The position numbers were made by a program, and so were the translations under genes. A DNA stretch of 7,858 nt from contig CBDUXP010000107.1 in NCBI GenBank assembly GCA_965371225.1, forward strand, positions 1 to 7,858. The letters run 5' to 3'. The notes beneath the pieces are model-generated. The model was given only the letters and a program-made list of their open reading frames with translations. It was not told where the DNA came from and searched no databases. Below are positions 1 through 7,858 of the stretch, piece after piece (position 1 is the first letter of the stretch; the number at the start of each line of letters is the position of its first letter). Source of the DNA: CBDUXP01 sp965371225 [NCBI: uncultured bacterium] (GTDB taxonomy: Bacteria > Abyssobacteria > SURF-5 > CBDUXP01).

Positions 1-2033
1 ATGTCCTGGGTGATGATGATGGCCCCGGTAATCCGCTCGTCGCTATCCCGCAGCGGTGTCAGATAGCACTGGAAGACGATGGGTTTGCCGCCGTGCACGC
101 CGAAGCTGGTCTGCATGCGCAGTTCGAAGGACGCGGTCGCCCCCTCGTCGATACAGCGCTGCACGTGGGCGGACGCGCCCGATTGCCGCAGGTCCGGATC
201 GGTCAGCAGGTTCACATGCTCCGCGAAGACCTCCCGCGACGGGGCGCCGACGAGATCGAGCGCGTGCTGGTTCGTCTCGATGATTTGGCCTTCCCGGTTG
301 CAGACGATCACCCCAATGGGGGCGTGGTCGACCAGCGACCGCCACCGCCGCTCGCTTTCCCGCCGGGCCTCGTCCGCGCGCTTCGAGGCGCTCATATCCT
401 CCACGGTGCCTTGACAGCCCCGGACCTCCCCGCTTGGGTCGAGCAGGGGCGCGACGTGGATACGCTGATTCACGAGCTTGCCCCAACTGGTGGTGTAGCT
501 GTACTCACCGTCCAGGTTCTGACCGGTTTCCATACAGCGTCGGAAGAGGTCCGCGACGCCGCCTTTCACGAGCGCGCGCGTACTCAGCGCATTCTTGCCG
601 GTGATCGCCTGCACATCGGGCGCGCCCAGCATCTCCGCCATGCGCGCATTCATGGTGAGCACCCGCCCGTCCGTGTCCACCGAGAAGATGCCCAGGGGGG
701 AATCCTCCACCAGCCTGCGGTACCGCTCCTCGCTGGCGCGCAGCGCGAGCTGTGCACGACGTTGTTCTGTGATGTCCCGGACCGTGCCGATCATGCGGAC
801 CGCCCGCCCGTCGCTGGCCCGTTCAGTTTCCCCCTGTTCGCTGACGATGCGCTCCGTCCCGTCGGGCCGGACGATCCGATGCTCGAAGGCGTAGCTTGGT
901 TCACCTCGCAGGCCCGCATCGACGGCCTCCTGGGCCAGGTGCCGGTCGTCCGGATGGATGCACTGCAAGAAGCCTTCAATGGTGGAGTTGAAATCGGCGG
1001 GAACCACGCCGAGGATCCCGTATAGTTCGTCCGAGAAGTGCACGGTATTGGTGGCGATGTCCCACATGCCGCTGCCCACGTGCGCGACCTGCTGGGCCCG
1101 GCGCAGGTGCCGTTCGCTGCGGCGCAGGGCCGTGTCCGACCGTTTGCGCGCCAGGGCGTTCCCCACGATTTGCCCCAGGATTCGCAGCAGCGCGATATCG
1201 TCCTCCGACCACGCGCGCTCCTCGCGCTCCGCGGCAAAACCCAGGAGGCCCACCATCTCTCCGGACAGCAACAGGGGGAGGATGACGATGGACTTCAAGC
1301 CCGCCTGTGTCCCCAGCAGGTGTTTGCCGGGCAAGTAGTCCCAGAGCGCGGCCACGCTGTGTACTTGGAGAATGTCGCCGCCGCGCAAGAGGGTCCAGCC
1401 CGGTCCCAGGTCCGTACGAATGTTCGTGAACAGGGCCTTCCGCGATGGGCGGTCTTCCTGCCGGAGGTCGTGCGTTAAGGTCCCGGTGGCACCGTCGTCG
1501 GAGGTTTCAAAGACGAACGCACTTTCGTCGCCGGTGAATTCCATCACCATCCGCAACGCGCGTTCGATGCCCGCGTCGATGTCTTGGGGGAGCACACTCA
1601 CGAACTCGGTCGCCAGTTGCATCAGGAGGTGCTCGAACTCCTGGCGCCGCCGGCGCGCCATCTCGGCGGCTTTCTGCCCCGTGACGTCTTGCACGAACCC
1701 CACCACGTGCGTCGGCTCGCCCTGCCCGTCGCGCACCACTTCGCCTACTTCGTGCAGCCAGCGCTCCGTCCCGTCCGGCCGCAGCAGCCGGTACTCGAAG
1801 TCCTGATCCTGGCCCTTACGGTATCCACACACCCGTGCCGCCCGCTTCTGCCGATCCTCGGGATGAATGAGCGCCTCCAGCGCTGTCTCGGGCTGGGGCG
1901 CGTCGGTGGTGGGCAGCCCCAGGATGCGATGCCCTTCCCGCGAGAACCGCAGGGTTCGGGCGCGCAGGTCCCACTCCCAGGTGCCAAGCCGGGCCAGTTC
2001 CTCTACCCGGGCCAGTCTCCGCTCTTCCTCCAC
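1..2033 (-). CDS. Multi-PAS/GAF sensor protein, C-terminus beyond window
   Basis: A continuous minus-strand frame runs from a GTG start at 2033 to the left edge: 677 residues with no stop. Domain order from the translation: PAS 1 (about residues 17-117, opening at TWEWDL and ending GFVQDVT, with an HPEDR box and an RPDGTERW core); GAF (about 130-298, starting near FEHLLMQLA and ending near LGQIVGNALARKR); PAS 2 (about 312-422, GMWDI, HPDDR, RPDGTER, ending VRDITEQ); PAS 3 (about 435-547, SPLGIFSVDTDGRV, ending GTVEDMSAS); PAS 4 (about 558 to the edge, APIGVIVCNREGQI, ending IIITQD). No membrane segment is visible, so it is probably a cytoplasmic sensor. This layout normally ends in a histidine kinase, GGDEF/EAL or sigma-54-type output, none of which is in the window. 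The start is chosen because an in-frame stop lies at 2076-2078 and GTG is the first good start after it, with an AGGGTGA stretch a few bases upstream. Signal and target are unknown. Confidence 0.9.
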   Translation of the reverse strand, partial: MEEERRLARVEELARLGTWEWDLRARTLRFSREGHRILGLPTTDAPQPETALEALIHPEDRQKRAARVCGYRKGQDQDFEYRLLRPDGTERWLHEVGEVVRDGQGEPTHVVGFVQDVTGQKAAEMARRRRQEFEHLLMQLATEFVSVLPQDIDAGIERALRMVMEFTGDESAFVFETSDDGATGTLTHDLRQEDRPSRKALFTNIRTDLGPGWTLLRGGDILQVHSVAALWDYLPGKHLLGTQAGLKSIVILPLLLSGEMVGLLGFAAEREERAWSEDDIALLRILGQIVGNALARKRSDTALRRSERHLRRAQQVAHVGSGMWDIATNTVHFSDELYGILGVVPADFNSTIEGFLQCIHPDDRHLAQEAVDAGLRGEPSYAFEHRIVRPDGTERIVSEQGETERASDGRAVRMIGTVRDITEQRRAQLALRASEERYRRLVEDSPLGIFSVDTDGRVLTMNARMAEMLGAPDVQAITGKNALSTRALVKGGVADLFRRCMETGQNLDGEYSYTTSWGKLVNQRIHVAPLLDPSGEVRGCQGTVEDMSASKRADEARRESERRWRSLVDHAPIGVIVCNREGQIIETNQHALDLVGAPSREVFAEHVNLLTDPDLRQSGASAHVQRCIDEGATASFELRMQTSFGVHGGKPIVFQCYLTPLRDSDERITGAIIITQD

Positions 2034-3347: not shown

Positions 3348-3448
3348 GCCCCGTCCGTCCTCTCTCGCTTCCGGGCCCGCGTCCCCCCGACGGACGCGCG
3401 GCCAGCATAGCAAAGTTTCCGCGGTCGCCCAGGTGCGCGGTCAGGGGC

Positions 3449-5149
3449 TCAGGTCGCGCCGTCCTTCTCCACGCGCTCGCGGAGTTTGAACTTCTGAATC
3501 TTGCCGGTGACGGTCATGGGGTATTCGGTGACGAAGCGCCAGTGCCGGGGGATCTTGTAGTGTGCGATCTGGCCGTCAGCAAACGCGCGCAGCTCGTCCT
3601 CCGTCGCGGACTCCCCGTCGCGCAGTTGCACGAACGCCATCAGCTCCTCGCCGTATTTCGGGTCGGGGATGCCCACGACGGCGATCTGCGCCACTTTCGG
3701 GTGGGTAAAATAAAACGCCTCGATCTCGGCGGGATAGATGTTCTCGCCGCCACGGATGACCATGTCCTTCAACCGGCCGGTGATCTTCACGTAGCCGTCC
3801 GCGTCCATGGTGCCCAGGTCGCCGCTGTGCAGCCACCCCGCCGCGTCGATCGCGTGCGCGGTGGCGTCGCTCTGGTTGTAGTAGCGGCGCATCACGTGCG
3901 GCCCGCGGAAGCACACCTCGCCTTGCAGGCCGATGGGCTGCGTGTGATGCGAGTCGGGATCGACGATCTTGCATTCTTGATGGGGCAAACTGAGCCCCAC
4001 CGTTTGCGTCCGGCGGTCGAGCGAATCGTCGGGCCGGGTCAGGTGCGTGAGCGGGCTCGCTTCCGTTTGTCCGTACCCGATGAGGATGTCCCGGCAGTGC
4101 ATGTCGTCGATTACCCGGTTCATCAACTCGACCGGACACATGGCGCCGGCCATGATGCCCGTGCGCAGCGAGGACACGTCCAACTCCGGGAACACCGGAT
4201 GTTCCAGTTCCGCCACGAACATGGTAGGCACCCCGTGCAGCGCCGTGCAGCGCTCTTCGGCCACGGCGCGCAAGGTGGCTTCGGGTTCGAAGTGTTCGGC
4301 GGGGATGACGAGCGTCCCGCCGGTCACCGCGCACAGAAGGTTGCTCAGCACCATGCCGAAACAGTGGTAGAAGGGGACCGGGACGCAGAGCGAGTCCGCG
4401 TCCGTGAACCGCATGAGCTGCGCGGCGTAGTACGCATTGTTGAGAATGTTGCGGTGGGTGAGCGTGGCGGCTTTCGGCGCGCCCGTGGTGCCCGAGGTGA
4501 ACTGGATATTGATCTCGTCGTCCCGGTCCAGGGAGGCCTGCCGCTCCGCCAGCGTCTCGGGCGGCACGTCGTCCCCCGAGGCCAGCAGATCGGCCCAGGT
4601 GAGCCAGCCGTCGGCCGGCCGCGGCGTGCCCTCGGGATCCATCGGGTCCCAGACGATCAGCCGCTCCAGCGCGGGCAACTTCGCGGCGTTCCACGCGCCC
4701 GGCGGGGCGCCGTCGGCCTCCGGCGCCAGCTCGCGCAACATGCACACATACTCGGACGTCTTAAAGGTGGGGATGCAGCAGACGGTCTGGCAGTCCACCA
4801 GAGTGAGCGCGTGCTGCAGCTCGGAGAGGCGGTAGGCGGGATTGATGTTCACGCAGATGGCGCCGACCTTGGCCGTGGCCATCTGGAGCAGGAACCACTC
4901 GATGTTGCTGGTGGACCAGACGCCGACGCGGTCGCCGCGCTGGACGCCGAGCCCGAACAGGCCGCGGGCCACGCGGGCTGCCGCGGCGCTGAATTCGGCA
5001 TACGTCATCCGCCGGCCTTGGTGCCGCGAAACGACTGCCGTCTTGTCCGCGAACCGCGCCGCGACGACGTCCGTGTAGTCCGGGATTGTGTCACCCAACA
5101 GCGGCACATCGCCCGGCATGTGCATATAACTGGTCGTCAGTGGCGCCAT
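3449..5149 (-). CDS. Acyl-CoA synthetase, AMP-dependent, ACSF2-like
   Basis: A 566-residue adenylate-forming enzyme expected to activate a carboxylic acid with ATP and CoA, giving acyl-CoA, AMP and PPi in the cytoplasm. Motifs in order: phosphate loop TSGTTGAPK (218-226), PFYHCFGM (259-266), GYGQTEAS (358-365), WLHSGDLG (439-446), hinge and C-domain entry GRLKDMVIRGGENIYP (458-473), and the catalytic lysine in PMTVTGK (K550). The opening (PLTTSYMH...PLLGDTI) and NINPAYRLSEL (101-111) match the ACSF2/medium-chain type better than long-chain FadD. The ATG at 5149 has GGGGAGG 8 nt upstream. The frame stays open to 5482, but that extension is low-complexity and lies over the start of the divergent peptidase gene. 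All key residues are present, so it should be active. Chain length and exact substrate cannot be read from sequence. It is divergent from the M20 peptidase, which may supply a free acid (inference). Confidence 0.95.
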   Translation of the reverse strand: MAPLTTSYMHMPGDVPLLGDTIPDYTDVVAARFADKTAVVSRHQGRRMTYAEFSAAAARVARGLFGLGVQRGDRVGVWSTSNIEWFLLQMATAKVGAICVNINPAYRLSELQHALTLVDCQTVCCIPTFKTSEYVCMLRELAPEADGAPPGAWNAAKLPALERLIVWDPMDPEGTPRPADGWLTWADLLASGDDVPPETLAERQASLDRDDEINIQFTSGTTGAPKAATLTHRNILNNAYYAAQLMRFTDADSLCVPVPFYHCFGMVLSNLLCAVTGGTLVIPAEHFEPEATLRAVAEERCTALHGVPTMFVAELEHPVFPELDVSSLRTGIMAGAMCPVELMNRVIDDMHCRDILIGYGQTEASPLTHLTRPDDSLDRRTQTVGLSLPHQECKIVDPDSHHTQPIGLQGEVCFRGPHVMRRYYNQSDATAHAIDAAGWLHSGDLGTMDADGYVKITGRLKDMVIRGGENIYPAEIEAFYFTHPKVAQIAVVGIPDPKYGEELMAFVQLRDGESATEDELRAFADGQIAHYKIPRHWRFVTEYPMTVTGKIQKFKLRERVEKDGAT

Positions 5150-5259
5150 GGCCCAATCCTCCCCAATTATGCTTCCACTGTAGCACGGGGCCCGCGCACC
5201 GCGCCTTGCGTGAACGATTCGGGTAGACTCTCGCTTCGTTGAAGGGGGTGGAGGAAACG
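5150..5259. promoter_or_regulatory. Divergent intergenic region, acyl-CoA synthetase / M20 peptidase
   Basis: This 110-nt region must carry start signals for both flanking genes unless one is driven from elsewhere. It contains strong Shine-Dalgarno sites on each side: GGGGAGG on the minus strand (plus positions 5158-5164) and GGAGG on the plus strand (5250-5254, 5 nt before the ATG). I could not pick a convincing -35/-10 pair for either direction. TAGACT at 5224-5229 is a possible plus-strand -10 without a matching -35. Confidence 0.4.
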
Positions 5260-6693
5260 ATGCAGCGACATACGCGAGGACGATGCGCCACGTGGCTGCT
5301 GGCAGGACTGGTGGCGGTGGCGCCTGGGGCGTGGGCGCACGAATCGACCGAGACGCCGCCCACACCGGCGGAACGCCTCGCCGGCGCCGTTCGCTTTCGC
5401 ACCGTGTCGCACGAGGCGGGGCTGGACGTAGAACGGGACACGTTCCTCGGCCTGCACGCGTACCTGGCTGAGAGCTTTCCACGTACGCACGCGACGCTGA
5501 CGCGCGAGGTGGTGAACGAGTACAGCCTGCTCTATACGTGGCGGGGCACGGACCCGGGCGCCCAACCCTTTCTGCTGACCAGCCACTTGGACGTGGTGCC
5601 CGTCCCCGAGGACACGCGGGACCAGTGGGAGCACGCGCCCTTCGATGGCATCATCGCGGAGGGATTCATCTGGGGCCGCGGCACGCTCGATAACAAGTCC
5701 GGGGTGCTGGCCACGCTCGAGGCAGTCGAAGCACTGATTACCGACGGCTTTACCCCGCGGCGCACGATCTATCTGGCCTTTGGGCATGACGAGGAGGTGC
5801 GCGGGCCCGCTGGCGCCGCGAAGATCACGGAACTATTGCAAGCGCGCGGGGTGCGGTGCGAGTTCACCCTCGACGAGGGGATGTTTGTCCTCACCGGGAT
5901 GATGCCCGGCGTCGAGGGCCCGGTGGGGCTCATCGGCATCGCGGAAAAGGGTTCCTGCACCCTGGAGCTGACGGCCCACGCCCCCGGCGGGCATTCCAGC
6001 GTCCCGCCCCCCGACTCCGCCATCGGGCGGTTGGCGCGCGCCATCCAGCGGGTCGAAGCGTCTCCGCTTCCGGCCCGGTTGGGGGACGGCCCGGCCGCGG
6101 CCATGTTCGACGAAGTGGGCCCGCACATGACGTTTCCCCTGCGAGCCATCATCGCGAACCGGTGGCTCTTCAATTCGCTGCTCATCGGCCGGTTGGAGCA
6201 AAGCCCGGTGACGAACGCGCTGATCCGCACGACCACCGCGGTCACCATCGTGCGGGGCGGCGTCAAACGGAACGTGTTGCCGGGAAAAGCCACGGCCACG
6301 GTGAATTTCCGCCTGCTGCCCGGGGACACGGTGGAGGGTGTGGTCGCCCACGTGCGCAAGGCCATCGCGGACCCGGAGATCGATATCGCGGTGGTGGCGG
6401 GCCGGGAAGCTTCCGCCGTCTCCGATCACACCGCCCCCGCGTTCGAGCGGATCCGGGCGAGCGTGGAAGCGGTCATGCCCGATGTGGTGGTGGTGGCGCC
6501 GGGCCTCGTGGTGGCCGGCACGGACACGAAGCACTACGCGAAGATTGCGGACAACAGTTACCGGTTCCTGCCTATGCGGCTGAGGGGCGAGGACACCTCG
6601 CGCTTCCACGGCGTGAACGAGCGTATCGCCGAGACCAATTACGCGGAAATGATCGCGTTCTATACGACGCTCATCCGCCGCAGCGACGGCTGA
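5260..6693 (+). CDS. Exported M20 metallopeptidase, PM20D1 / carboxypeptidase S-like
   Basis: A 477-residue dinuclear metal amidohydrolase. The signal peptide is about residues 1-26 (hydrophobic WLLAGLVAVAPGAWA, cleavage after AWA), so it acts in the periplasm or outside. Catalytic and metal residues of the M20 family are all visible: H109 and D111 in HLDVVP, D144 in GTLDNK, E178/E179 in GHDEEV, D205 in FTLDEG, and H450 in SRFHGVNE. The dimerisation/lid domain begins around GIAEKGSCTLEL and HAPGGHSS (226-247). The run from LDEG through AEKG to GHSS and the end SYRFLPMRL...FHGVNERI resemble mammalian PM20D1 and yeast carboxypeptidase S more than DapE or ArgE. Relatives hydrolyse dipeptides or N-acyl amino acids; PM20D1 also runs in reverse. 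The ATG at 5260 is preferred over an in-frame TTG at 5239 because GGAGG lies 5 nt ahead and the signal peptide then starts cleanly. The substrate is unproven. Confidence 0.95.
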   Translation: MQRHTRGRCATWLLAGLVAVAPGAWAHESTETPPTPAERLAGAVRFRTVSHEAGLDVERDTFLGLHAYLAESFPRTHATLTREVVNEYSLLYTWRGTDPGAQPFLLTSHLDVVPVPEDTRDQWEHAPFDGIIAEGFIWGRGTLDNKSGVLATLEAVEALITDGFTPRRTIYLAFGHDEEVRGPAGAAKITELLQARGVRCEFTLDEGMFVLTGMMPGVEGPVGLIGIAEKGSCTLELTAHAPGGHSSVPPPDSAIGRLARAIQRVEASPLPARLGDGPAAAMFDEVGPHMTFPLRAIIANRWLFNSLLIGRLEQSPVTNALIRTTTAVTIVRGGVKRNVLPGKATATVNFRLLPGDTVEGVVAHVRKAIADPEIDIAVVAGREASAVSDHTAPAFERIRASVEAVMPDVVVVAPGLVVAGTDTKHYAKIADNSYRFLPMRLRGEDTSRFHGVNERIAETNYAEMIAFYTTLIRRSDG

Positions 6694-6730
6694 GCCCTGG
6701 TCGGGCGCGGCATGACCGTATGGCCCATGC

Positions 6731-6748
6731 GCACAAATGTGCTAGAGT
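6731..6748 (+). promoter_or_regulatory. Possible extended -10 promoter with overlapping dyad
   Basis: TGCTAGAGT (6740-6748) fits an extended -10 (TGN followed by TAGAGT). Directly upstream and overlapping, GCACAAATGTGC (6731-6742) is a perfect dyad with arms GCACA/TGTGC, in the position of an operator. No good -35 is seen at 16-18 nt. The predicted transcription start near 6755 coincides with the first base of the closing stem of the structured leader, which supports the pairing of promoter and RNA. The regulator is not identified. Confidence 0.35.
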
Positions 6749-6754
6749 AGGGGA

Positions 6755-6882
6755 GTGCGAGGGTCCGTCGTCTGGCGGACCATCGTTTGTTAGGAGCCGA
6801 ACGGGCGCATCCGCTGCGGGATGCGCCTCGCACCACAGGAGCTTGGCGTAGCGAACCGCCGATCGCAGTCAAAGCCTCGCAC
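6755..6882 (+). ncRNA. Candidate structured leader RNA or cis-regulatory element
   Basis: No convincing coding signal covers this stretch, but it folds compactly by eye. P1 is GTGCGAGG (6755-6762) with CCTCGCAC (6875-6882). P2 is GTCCG/CGGAC (6763-6767/6776-6780). P3 is GGCGCATCC/GGATGCGCC (6804-6812/6819-6827), nine perfect pairs with a 6-nt loop. P4 is TTGGCG/CGCCGA (6843-6848/6857-6862), six pairs including one G-U. Three hairpins closed by an end-to-end stem is a typical riboswitch or small-RNA shape. The 3' strand of P1 is part of a 9-mer, GCCTCGCAC, that also occurs at 6825-6833, so P1 has a competing partner. AGGAGC (6792, 6837) precedes, and TCGCA (6828, 6863) follows, each of P3 and P4. 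I do not recognise a known class: it lacks the SRP apical motif, the cobalamin box and TPP core motifs, and I see no 6S match. It could act on the downstream A-type/NqrA-like genes or be an independent RNA. Confidence 0.45.
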
Positions 6883-6888
6883 AGTCCC

Positions 6889-6933
6889 GTCGCCTCCCCC
6901 CGTGTTGTCTGCCCGTCCGGGCCCTGGGGCGAC
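6889..6933 (+). repeat. Inverted repeat just upstream of the A-type protein gene
   Basis: GTCGCCTC (6889-6896) pairs with GGGGCGAC (6926-6933), eight pairs including one T-G. Inside is a smaller hairpin, GCCCG/CGGGC (6911-6921 region). It begins 6 nt after the closing stem of the leader RNA and ends 31 nt before the ATG at 6965. There is no T-tract. It could be the expression platform of a leader that controls translation, or a GC-rich coincidence. Confidence 0.35.
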
Positions 6934-6964
6934 CGCTGCGCCGAGACGCTTGGCCCGAGCGCCC

Positions 6965-7270
6965 ATGCACATCACCCCGAGCGCCCACGCGAAACTCCAC
7001 GACCTGCTGCGCCGCTCCCGTGCGGCGTCCGTGGGTTTTCACTTCGGCAAGCTGGGCGGCTGTCATGGCGCCGTGCCGCGCCTGCGTCCAGGCGCGACGC
7101 CGCGCCCTGGGGAACGGCGGTACGACTTCGCGGGGCTGCCGCTGTTCATGCGCCCGCGCGAATTCGCGGAACTGGAGCCGTACACGCTCGACTACGCCAA
7201 GGGGCTGTTCGTGAGCCGCTTCGTGCTGGAAGCGGACTGCCACGCGTGCGTCGCCGCTCACCTGTGCTGA
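6965..7270 (+). CDS. Divergent A-type (IscA/HesB-like) protein, putative Fe-S or iron carrier
   Basis: A 101-residue protein close to the usual length of IscA (about 107). It follows the family outline: ITPSAHAKLHDLL at the N-terminus, GFHFGKLGGCHG (residues 24-35) where IscA has a SGCSG loop, then YDFAGLPLFM (53-62), LDYAKGLFVSRFVL (75-88) where IscA has LDFVKEGLNEGFKF, and a C-terminal cysteine pair. Cysteines are C33, C92, C95 and C101. The normal CXC ending is CX2C here (DCHAC) and a fourth cysteine is the last residue. A-type proteins carry Fe-S clusters or iron to target enzymes; I infer a related role, perhaps for the NqrA-like complex, because that gene starts 31 nt downstream. The ATG at 6965 is chosen since the domain begins there. 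An in-frame ATG at 6821 would add 48 low-complexity residues encoded within the structured leader. The Shine-Dalgarno is weak. A non-cluster role is possible. Confidence 0.7.
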   Translation: MHITPSAHAKLHDLLRRSRAASVGFHFGKLGGCHGAVPRLRPGATPRPGERRYDFAGLPLFMRPREFAELEPYTLDYAKGLFVSRFVLEADCHACVAAHLC

Positions 7271-7301
7271 CCCCCATGCGCATCCCCCAGGCGAAGCCCG
7301 C

Positions 7302-7858
7302 ATGATCCCGGTGCGGGTGAGCGGCGGCCATCGCCTCATACTCGACGGTGCGCCGAGCGCCGACGTGGAGGTCGTGCCGCCGCCCGATGAACTGCGGCTG
7401 CCCCGCCGCCAGCGGTTCGTAGAGTTCACGGAGGTGCACGTGCAGGAGGGGGAGCGGGTGGCCGCCGGCCAGGCGCTGGCCCGCGGGCCGCACGAATGCG
7501 CATTCCCGTTGGTGGCGCCCGTGGGCGGGCAGGTGGCGCAGATTCTGGACGAGGTCATCGTGCTGCGCGTGGACGAGCCCAGTGCGTGGCGCGCGCGCGC
7601 GTTCCCGCCGCTGCCGTGGCAGAACGCGGCGCCGGACGTGTTGCGCGACCGGATTCGCGACGCCGGGTTGTGGCCGACCCTGTACGCGGCGCCCGATGGG
7701 GACATCCCCTGGCGCTTGGCCGACGACGCGCGACCGCCCGCGTTCATCGTGATCGGCGCAGTGCACGGGGAACCGTACTTGGCGCACCCGGCGGTGGTGT
7801 TGGAGGGCAGTGGCGACGCGCTCGTGGAGGCGGCCCACATCCTGCAGCGCATGTCCGG
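7302..7858 (+). CDS. NqrA/RnfC-family protein, N-terminal part
   Basis: An open frame from the ATG at 7302 to the right edge gives 185 residues with no stop. The start MIPVRVSGGHRLILDGAP resembles the NqrA opening (MI.ikkGLdlpi.GaP). A lipoyl-like barrel-sandwich section follows: VHVQEGERVAAGQALAR (45-61) and PLVAPVGGQVAQIL (69-82), shared by NqrA and RnfC. RIRDAGLWPTL (117-127) and PPAFIVIGAVHGEPYLAHP (145-163) line up with the NqrA segments around SGLW and FVTAMDTNPLAADP, but the usual RPF after GLW is absent. NqrA is the peripheral cytoplasmic subunit of the sodium-translocating NADH:quinone reductase; RnfC is its distant relative in RNF. DELRLPRRQ (29-37) looks more RnfC-like, so this may be an intermediate or divergent branch. 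It is probably co-transcribed with the A-type gene 31 nt upstream. The Shine-Dalgarno is weak (AGGCGAAG, about 10 nt ahead). Confidence 0.75.
   Translation, partial: MIPVRVSGGHRLILDGAPSADVEVVPPPDELRLPRRQRFVEFTEVHVQEGERVAAGQALARGPHECAFPLVAPVGGQVAQILDEVIVLRVDEPSAWRARAFPPLPWQNAAPDVLRDRIRDAGLWPTLYAAPDGDIPWRLADDARPPAFIVIGAVHGEPYLAHPAVVLEGSGDALVEAAHILQRMS

Follow-up and report, generated by a model that had tools for sequence, protein, structure and literature searches.

A candidate cis-acting leader RNA with a predicted four-way junction upstream of A-type-like and NqrA-like genes

Two candidate leader RNAs have been published for nqrA. One is nqrA-II, a candidate riboswitch of the Pasteurellaceae with 36 unique representatives, covariation and a ligand that is still unproven, and the other is the nqrA motif of Marinomonas, a separate candidate unrelated to nqrA-II (both from the available sections of PMC11109978). 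The locus described here combines a gene for an NqrA-like protein with one for a protein resembling A-type iron-sulfur carriers, and lies near the end of the window, by which we mean the whole stretch of 7,858 nucleotides that was analysed. A limited literature search gave no on-topic report of this gene context, its result being a comparative-genomics paper that, judging by title and opening lines, deals with another subject (metal-tolerant bacteria), and the available part of an account of NQR evolution (PMC4014512) does not mention an A-type neighbour. Our analysis suggests that a long leader likely precedes the two genes and that a candidate cis-acting role for this leader is plausible, with sensing unsupported.

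The NqrA-like assignment is the firmer of the two. The frame, as far as it extends within the window, matches Pfam RnfC_N (E 5.5e-7) and the NCBIfam model for NqrA, NF003761 (E 9.5e-15, 54 bits, relative to a cut-off of 450 that applies to the whole protein), and solved RnfC and NqrA chains also match its product with E values of 0.007-0.03. The A-type assignment of the preceding frame is weak, and draws on a nearly full-length match to NCBIfam TIGR00049 (E 2.1e-4, 21.5 bits, cut-off 58.8) that spans profile positions 2-90 of 106. Searches of this protein against Pfam with E up to 10 returned no family beyond a weak SH3_9 match (E 0.24), the best solved structure, HI1723, was not significant (E 2), and an AlphaFold model built without an alignment was uninformative (mean pLDDT 36). 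A-type carriers have a CGC at their C-terminal end. The protein predicted here has a single Cys in GGCHG, and CHAC...C at the C-terminal position where CGC is expected.

The coordinates of these genes, of the promoter-like boxes and of the elements of the leader are collected in Table 1.

Table 1. Positions in the window of the genes, promoter-like boxes and predicted RNA elements discussed in the text.
Feature	Position	Strand	Remark
Box TGCTATGCT	3404-3412	-	Gene starting at 3348, implied leader 48 nt
Box TGCTACAGT	5177-5185	-	AMP-binding gene, implied leader 20 nt
M20 peptidase gene	likely ATG 5260, stop 6691-6693	+	
Intergenic gap, M20 to A-type-like gene	6694-6964		271 bases
Extended -10 promoter-like box TGCTAGAGT	6740-6748	+	TGNTANNNT match
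Four-way junction, 79 nt	6755-6833	+	P1a closes hairpins P2, P3 and P4
P1a	6755-6760/6828-6833	+	
P2	6762-6769/6774-6781	+	
P2 as terminator-like site, tail ATCGTTTGTT	6762-6781	+	8-pair hairpin
P3, loop UUAGGAGC	6784-6789/6798-6803	+	
P4	6804-6812/6819-6827	+	
Second copy of the 3' strand (CCTCGCAC)	6875-6882	+	Forms alternative closing stem P1b with 6755-6761
Hairpin 5' of the A-type start codon, 8 outer pairs	6889-6933	+	Pair probabilities 0.86-1.00 (6755-7020 folded)
Divergent A-type iron-sulfur carrier-like protein, 101 aa	6965-7270	+	TIGR00049
NqrA-like protein, N-terminal part, truncated by window end	7302-7856	+	

Both the promoter of the A-type-like gene and its transcript start are inferred from the DNA. 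As a rule of thumb, transcription begins at a spacing of 7 from the -10 box, so the RNA expected from the TGCTAGAGT box would start at 6756, to within one or two bases. This is one base inside P1, whose first base is 6755, and implies a leader of about 209 nt; it also lies upstream of 6882, the position beyond which a start would have spoken against the cis-regulatory RNA proposed in a sequence-only reading of this DNA. A sigma-70 scan at the 6740-6748 promoter found no -35 box, and a second, poorer box (4 of 5 positions) would give the gene a 193-nt leader. The number of TGNTANNNT boxes in the window is not in excess (three, compared with a mean of 1.98 in 200 shuffles, 59 of which have at least three). 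Each of the three reads TGCTANNNT and has a gene start downstream of it on the correct strand, which suggests a common extended -10 promoter of this organism. When 4 of 5 box positions are allowed, as is the case for the boxes of two of the four other genes, the other implied leaders are 23 nt for EVE (measured to 2605, or about 20 nt from its ATG at 2608), 48 nt for the gene starting at 3348, 20 nt for the AMP-binding gene and 23 nt for M20, and 3 of the 8 genes examined are without such a box. The gene starting at 3348 is small, membrane-like and, by eye, DoxX-like, and its only Pfam match is CBP_BcsR, below the cut-off.

Codon calculations indicate that the leader is non-coding. An open frame of 149 codons runs into the A-type-like gene from an ATG at 6821, and we rejected it as an N-terminal extension because its codon statistics are non-coding before about 6965: the log-likelihood, for which six frames elsewhere in the window, the A-type one not among them, served as the training set, is -0.40 per codon for 6821-6964 vs +0.27 from 6965, and GC3 is 0.69 for the extension vs 0.86 for the frame from 6965. 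A coding leader would have spoken against the sequence-only reading, but the codon signal begins only near 6965. The motif AGGAGC occurs twice in the leader, in the P3 loop (6792-6797) and in its second half (6837-6842); a leader peptide was rejected since, by eye, neither AGGAG has a start codon 5-10 bases downstream.

The leader opens with an 8-mer, GTGCGAGG (6755-6762), that is the exact complement of both 6826-6833 and 6875-6882. The sequence-only reading had pointed to this arrangement, and we confirmed both the duplication of GCCTCGCAC, with identical copies at 6825-6833 and 6874-6882, and the ability of 6755-6762 to pair with either copy. Its end-to-end stem of 8 pairs (6755-6762/6875-6882) holds as an exact complementarity but is reduced to 7 pairs in the calculated folds, as G6762 and C6827 are occupied by P2 and P4, leaving a closing stem of 6 pairs with the near copy or 7 with the far one. 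The enclosed hairpins, given as 5, 9 and 6 pairs, needed a similar revision. The 9-pair hairpin (6804-6812/6819-6827) is present in the predicted folds, as is a 6-pair one, but the hairpin given as 5 pairs has 8 (6762-6769/6774-6781) and there are two of 6 pairs (6784-6789/6798-6803 and 6843-6848/6857-6862). The 8-pair hairpin proposed just 5' of the start codon (6889-6896/6926-6933) was recovered as described. Among 5000 shuffles of 6740-6964, 22 contain an 8-mer whose complement occurs twice further downstream, as do 4 of 306 real 225-nt tiles, all four of which overlap this site. Taken alone, neither an 8-nt inverted repeat (48% of shuffles, 47% of tiles) nor a repeated 9-mer (19% of shuffles, 33% of tiles) is unusual. 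Tandem duplication as the origin of the GCCTCGCAC pair was set aside as unsupported because 12% of 2000 shuffles attain the observed alignment score of 20.0 (shuffle mean 15.7).

The two closing stems are mutually exclusive, sharing the 5' strand that begins at 6755, and equilibrium folding of truncated RNAs, which does not model kinetics, shows them exchanging with transcript length. The near stem P1a dominates (0.67-0.999) for transcripts ending before 6885, with the exception of an end at 6855 (0.42), and again from 6945 on, and the far stem P1b dominates (0.75-0.997) for ends at 6885-6935, its probability being 0.997 at 6885 and 0.015 at 6965. Such an exchange is possible, but no output is visible, because there is no Shine-Dalgarno sequence, no consistent effect on exposure and no terminator. 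By eye, no Shine-Dalgarno sequence precedes the A-type ATG, and no terminator-like site occurs within 6834-6965. Forcing P1a leaves 6945-6978 with an average unpaired probability of 0.42-0.46, and forcing P1b with one of 0.43-0.47, and the choice of stem moves exposure of the AUG in opposite directions depending on transcript length (unpaired probability with P1a/P1b forced 0.68/0.66 for an end at 7000, 0.68/0.43 at 7020 and 0.61/0.71 at 7060). The proposal of a cis-regulatory sensor RNA is thus supported as far as the long non-coding leader and, in calculation, the two exclusive stems are concerned, but the further step to a switch is unsupported.

The comparison with Rfam that the sequence-only reading suggested did not match the leader to any known RNA family. 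No Rfam 15 model reaches its gathering score anywhere in the window; with E up to 10, the region 6660-7000 gave two hits, both outside the leader fold, and 6750-6890 gave xerDC only (13.2 bits vs a gathering score of 72.5). ARAGORN found no tRNA or tmRNA genes in the window.

Neither did we find a homologous leader among the genome contigs, viral contigs, plasmids and phages searched. Pattern searches of the genome contigs for the NqrA-like and M20 proteins gave 85 and 74 hits and no relatives, which does not amount to absence because each set of patterns consisted of six short exact peptides. In the viral contigs, the A-type-like protein gave 9 pattern hits and no relatives, and the NqrA-like protein 7 pattern hits with one locus (L003, E 5e-5, residues 22-75), which, judged by eye from its frames, is a chance match. 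Leader DNA patterns retrieved 0, 36 and 42 viral loci. Searching the leader against 81 loci, nhmmer gave no hit, and blastn with 7-letter words gave pieces of 15-29 bases among the matches listed, the best having E 0.010 (L062). A covariance model built from the single sequence gave best E values of 1.1 and 1.7 in 78 viral loci; run on the window and 4 plasmid loci, it matched in the window only, finding the element itself plus two weak minus-strand matches (15.4 and 12.6 bits). In plasmids, tblastn with the NqrA-like protein returned 4 records (best E 3e-3), and the three of these annotated as NqrA have no annotated A-type gene in the stretch fetched and no Rfam match. The A-type-like protein found one plasmid record (E 0.9), and the leader DNA found 3 plasmid records and 1 phage record (best E 0.8 and 0.9, respectively). 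For the M20 protein, relatives are plentiful yet distant (153 records in plasmids, none reaching 60% identity, and 7 in phages).

Among the plain alternatives to a functional leader, the strongest is chance structure in GC-rich DNA, followed by an M20 terminator at P2. If this were ordinary GC-rich intergenic DNA, stems would form by chance in a long leader or spacer with no selected structure, and several observations fit such an origin, beginning with a GC content that stays at 0.64-0.78 along the leader (50-base windows) and the ease with which 8-nt inverted repeats arise in shuffled sequence. As calculated, 6755-6833 has a minimum free energy of -46.8 kcal/mol and a z of -4.61 (300 shuffles), the most unusual of nine stretches examined. 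When 1556 windows, each of 79 nt, are compared over both strands of the contig (60 shuffles), none has a lower z than 6755-6833 (-4.28), which speaks against chance, although this rank flatters the junction because window length and grid were fixed after the fold was seen; that its 5' end falls where the -10 box would place the transcript start also argues for something more than chance. When 6755-6833 itself is shuffled, 9 of 20,000 sequences are as stable and 17 of 10,000 form such a closed junction. In the fairer control, where the gap 6694-6964 is shuffled and position is left free, 34 of 800 shuffles contain a 79-nt window as stable as the junction and 51 of 800 a closed four-way junction of the same length, as chance structure would predict. 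A coarser run in steps of 3 put 14 of 480 shuffles at or below -46.8, on a grid where the real gap itself reaches only -44.3. In the contig itself, none of 28 real tiles of 271 nt covers the element in full; two of them hold a 79-nt window that folds to a lower energy (-49.4), and a closed junction of this length turns up in another two. The lower-energy windows belong to tiles 5963-6233 and 7318-7588, within the M20 and NqrA-like frames. The minus strand of 6755-6833 is almost as unusual as the element (z -3.87). Next in rank come 3815-3893 (-) in the AMP-binding gene (z -3.80) and 1325-1403 (-) in a long frame, 3-2033 (-), that by eye is sensor-kinase-like (z -3.76); that windows within other frames of the contig reach -3.8 again fits chance. 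The leader as a whole is no stabler than its shuffles (z -0.09 for 6740-6970, z -1.17 for 6755-6964), and 6834-6882 and 6883-6964 on their own are ordinary (z -0.03 and -0.07), so any structural signal, which is suggestive only, is limited to the opening portion of the leader. For a single sequence this signal is borderline; we place selected structure in the first 79 nt at somewhat under even odds, and give serious, if tentative, weight to chance structure.

The second plain alternative, that P2 and its T-rich tail form an intrinsic terminator of the upstream M20 gene and the remaining structure is incidental, appears unlikely. Of the 7 terminator-like sites listed for the window, P2 comes first; it lies 68 bases past the M20 stop on the same strand, in a region (6600-7400) with 3 sites, two of them overlapping, where 0.3 are expected. 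Its tail ATCGTTTGTT is a weak U-tract, however, the window-wide count of 7 compares with an expected 3.5 (sd 2.2), and if the 6740-6748 promoter is right P2 would lie some 7 bases into the following transcript, which it would impede. At the other extreme, a ligand-sensing switch is possible by analogy, and a true riboswitch, whose junction would bind Na+, iron, NAD(H) or flavin and control the genes through P1a and P1b, could account for the two exclusive closing stems and would suit an NqrA-like gene downstream in the same direction; the two unrelated nqrA-leader candidates published for Marinomonas and the Pasteurellaceae (available sections of PMC11109978) lend it some precedent. Against it stand the lack of an Rfam match, a mean exposure of the start region that is nearly equal in both states with AUG shifts either way, the lack of a terminator-like site within 6834-6965, the lack of any homologous leader, and with it of covariation, in the collections searched, and the position of the leader next to the A-type gene rather than nqrA. 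We consider this explanation improbable, and hold it similarly improbable that an undescribed four-way-junction leader, beginning at the operon's first transcribed base, swaps its stem partner during transcription as iron-sulfur, Na+ or redox state changes.

The reading we prefer, with a probability of roughly 0.38, is that of a real long 5' leader (about 6755-6964) that acts in cis and carries a 79-nt cloverleaf-like junction starting at, or right beside, its first transcribed base. The junction would fold as soon as it is transcribed, and may either stabilise the 5' end of the mRNA or offer a protein or ligand a place to dock. Once 6875-6882 emerges, the closing stem could change partner, so that transcription might pass through a point of choice. 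A ligand, a protein partner and an influence on expression are all, at this stage, pure conjecture. If real, this would be an orphan leader RNA outside Rfam that is tied to a pair of A-type carrier and NqrA-like genes, and a place to ask whether iron-sulfur supply shares its control with the entry of electrons into respiration.

Several described riboswitches, among them NiCo and SAM-I, are built on four-way junctions. This is also true of the yybP-ykoY Mn2+ riboswitch (available part of PMC6754395); the likeness to the fold predicted here lies in a closing stem and helices that meet at a four-way junction. In contrast to these riboswitches, the present leader is matched by no Rfam model with E up to 10, except for the sub-threshold xerDC. 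The Na+-I riboswitch (DUF1646 motif) is likewise a leader RNA of genes linked to Na+ gradients, but it is a two-stem (P1, P2) RNA according to the available part of PMC9337991, whereas a four-way junction is predicted here; no words starting with nqr or NADH occur in the text of PMC9337991. The likeness to nqrA-II is that both are structured RNAs, nqrA-II having four stem-loops upstream of nqrA. The available sections of PMC11109978 place nqrA-II directly before the nqrA start codon, whereas here the A-type frame 6965-7270 intervenes, and nqrA-II has 36 unique representatives with covariation, whereas the present leader is a single example that no Rfam family matches. If real, it would constitute a third leader type for nqrA-related genes.
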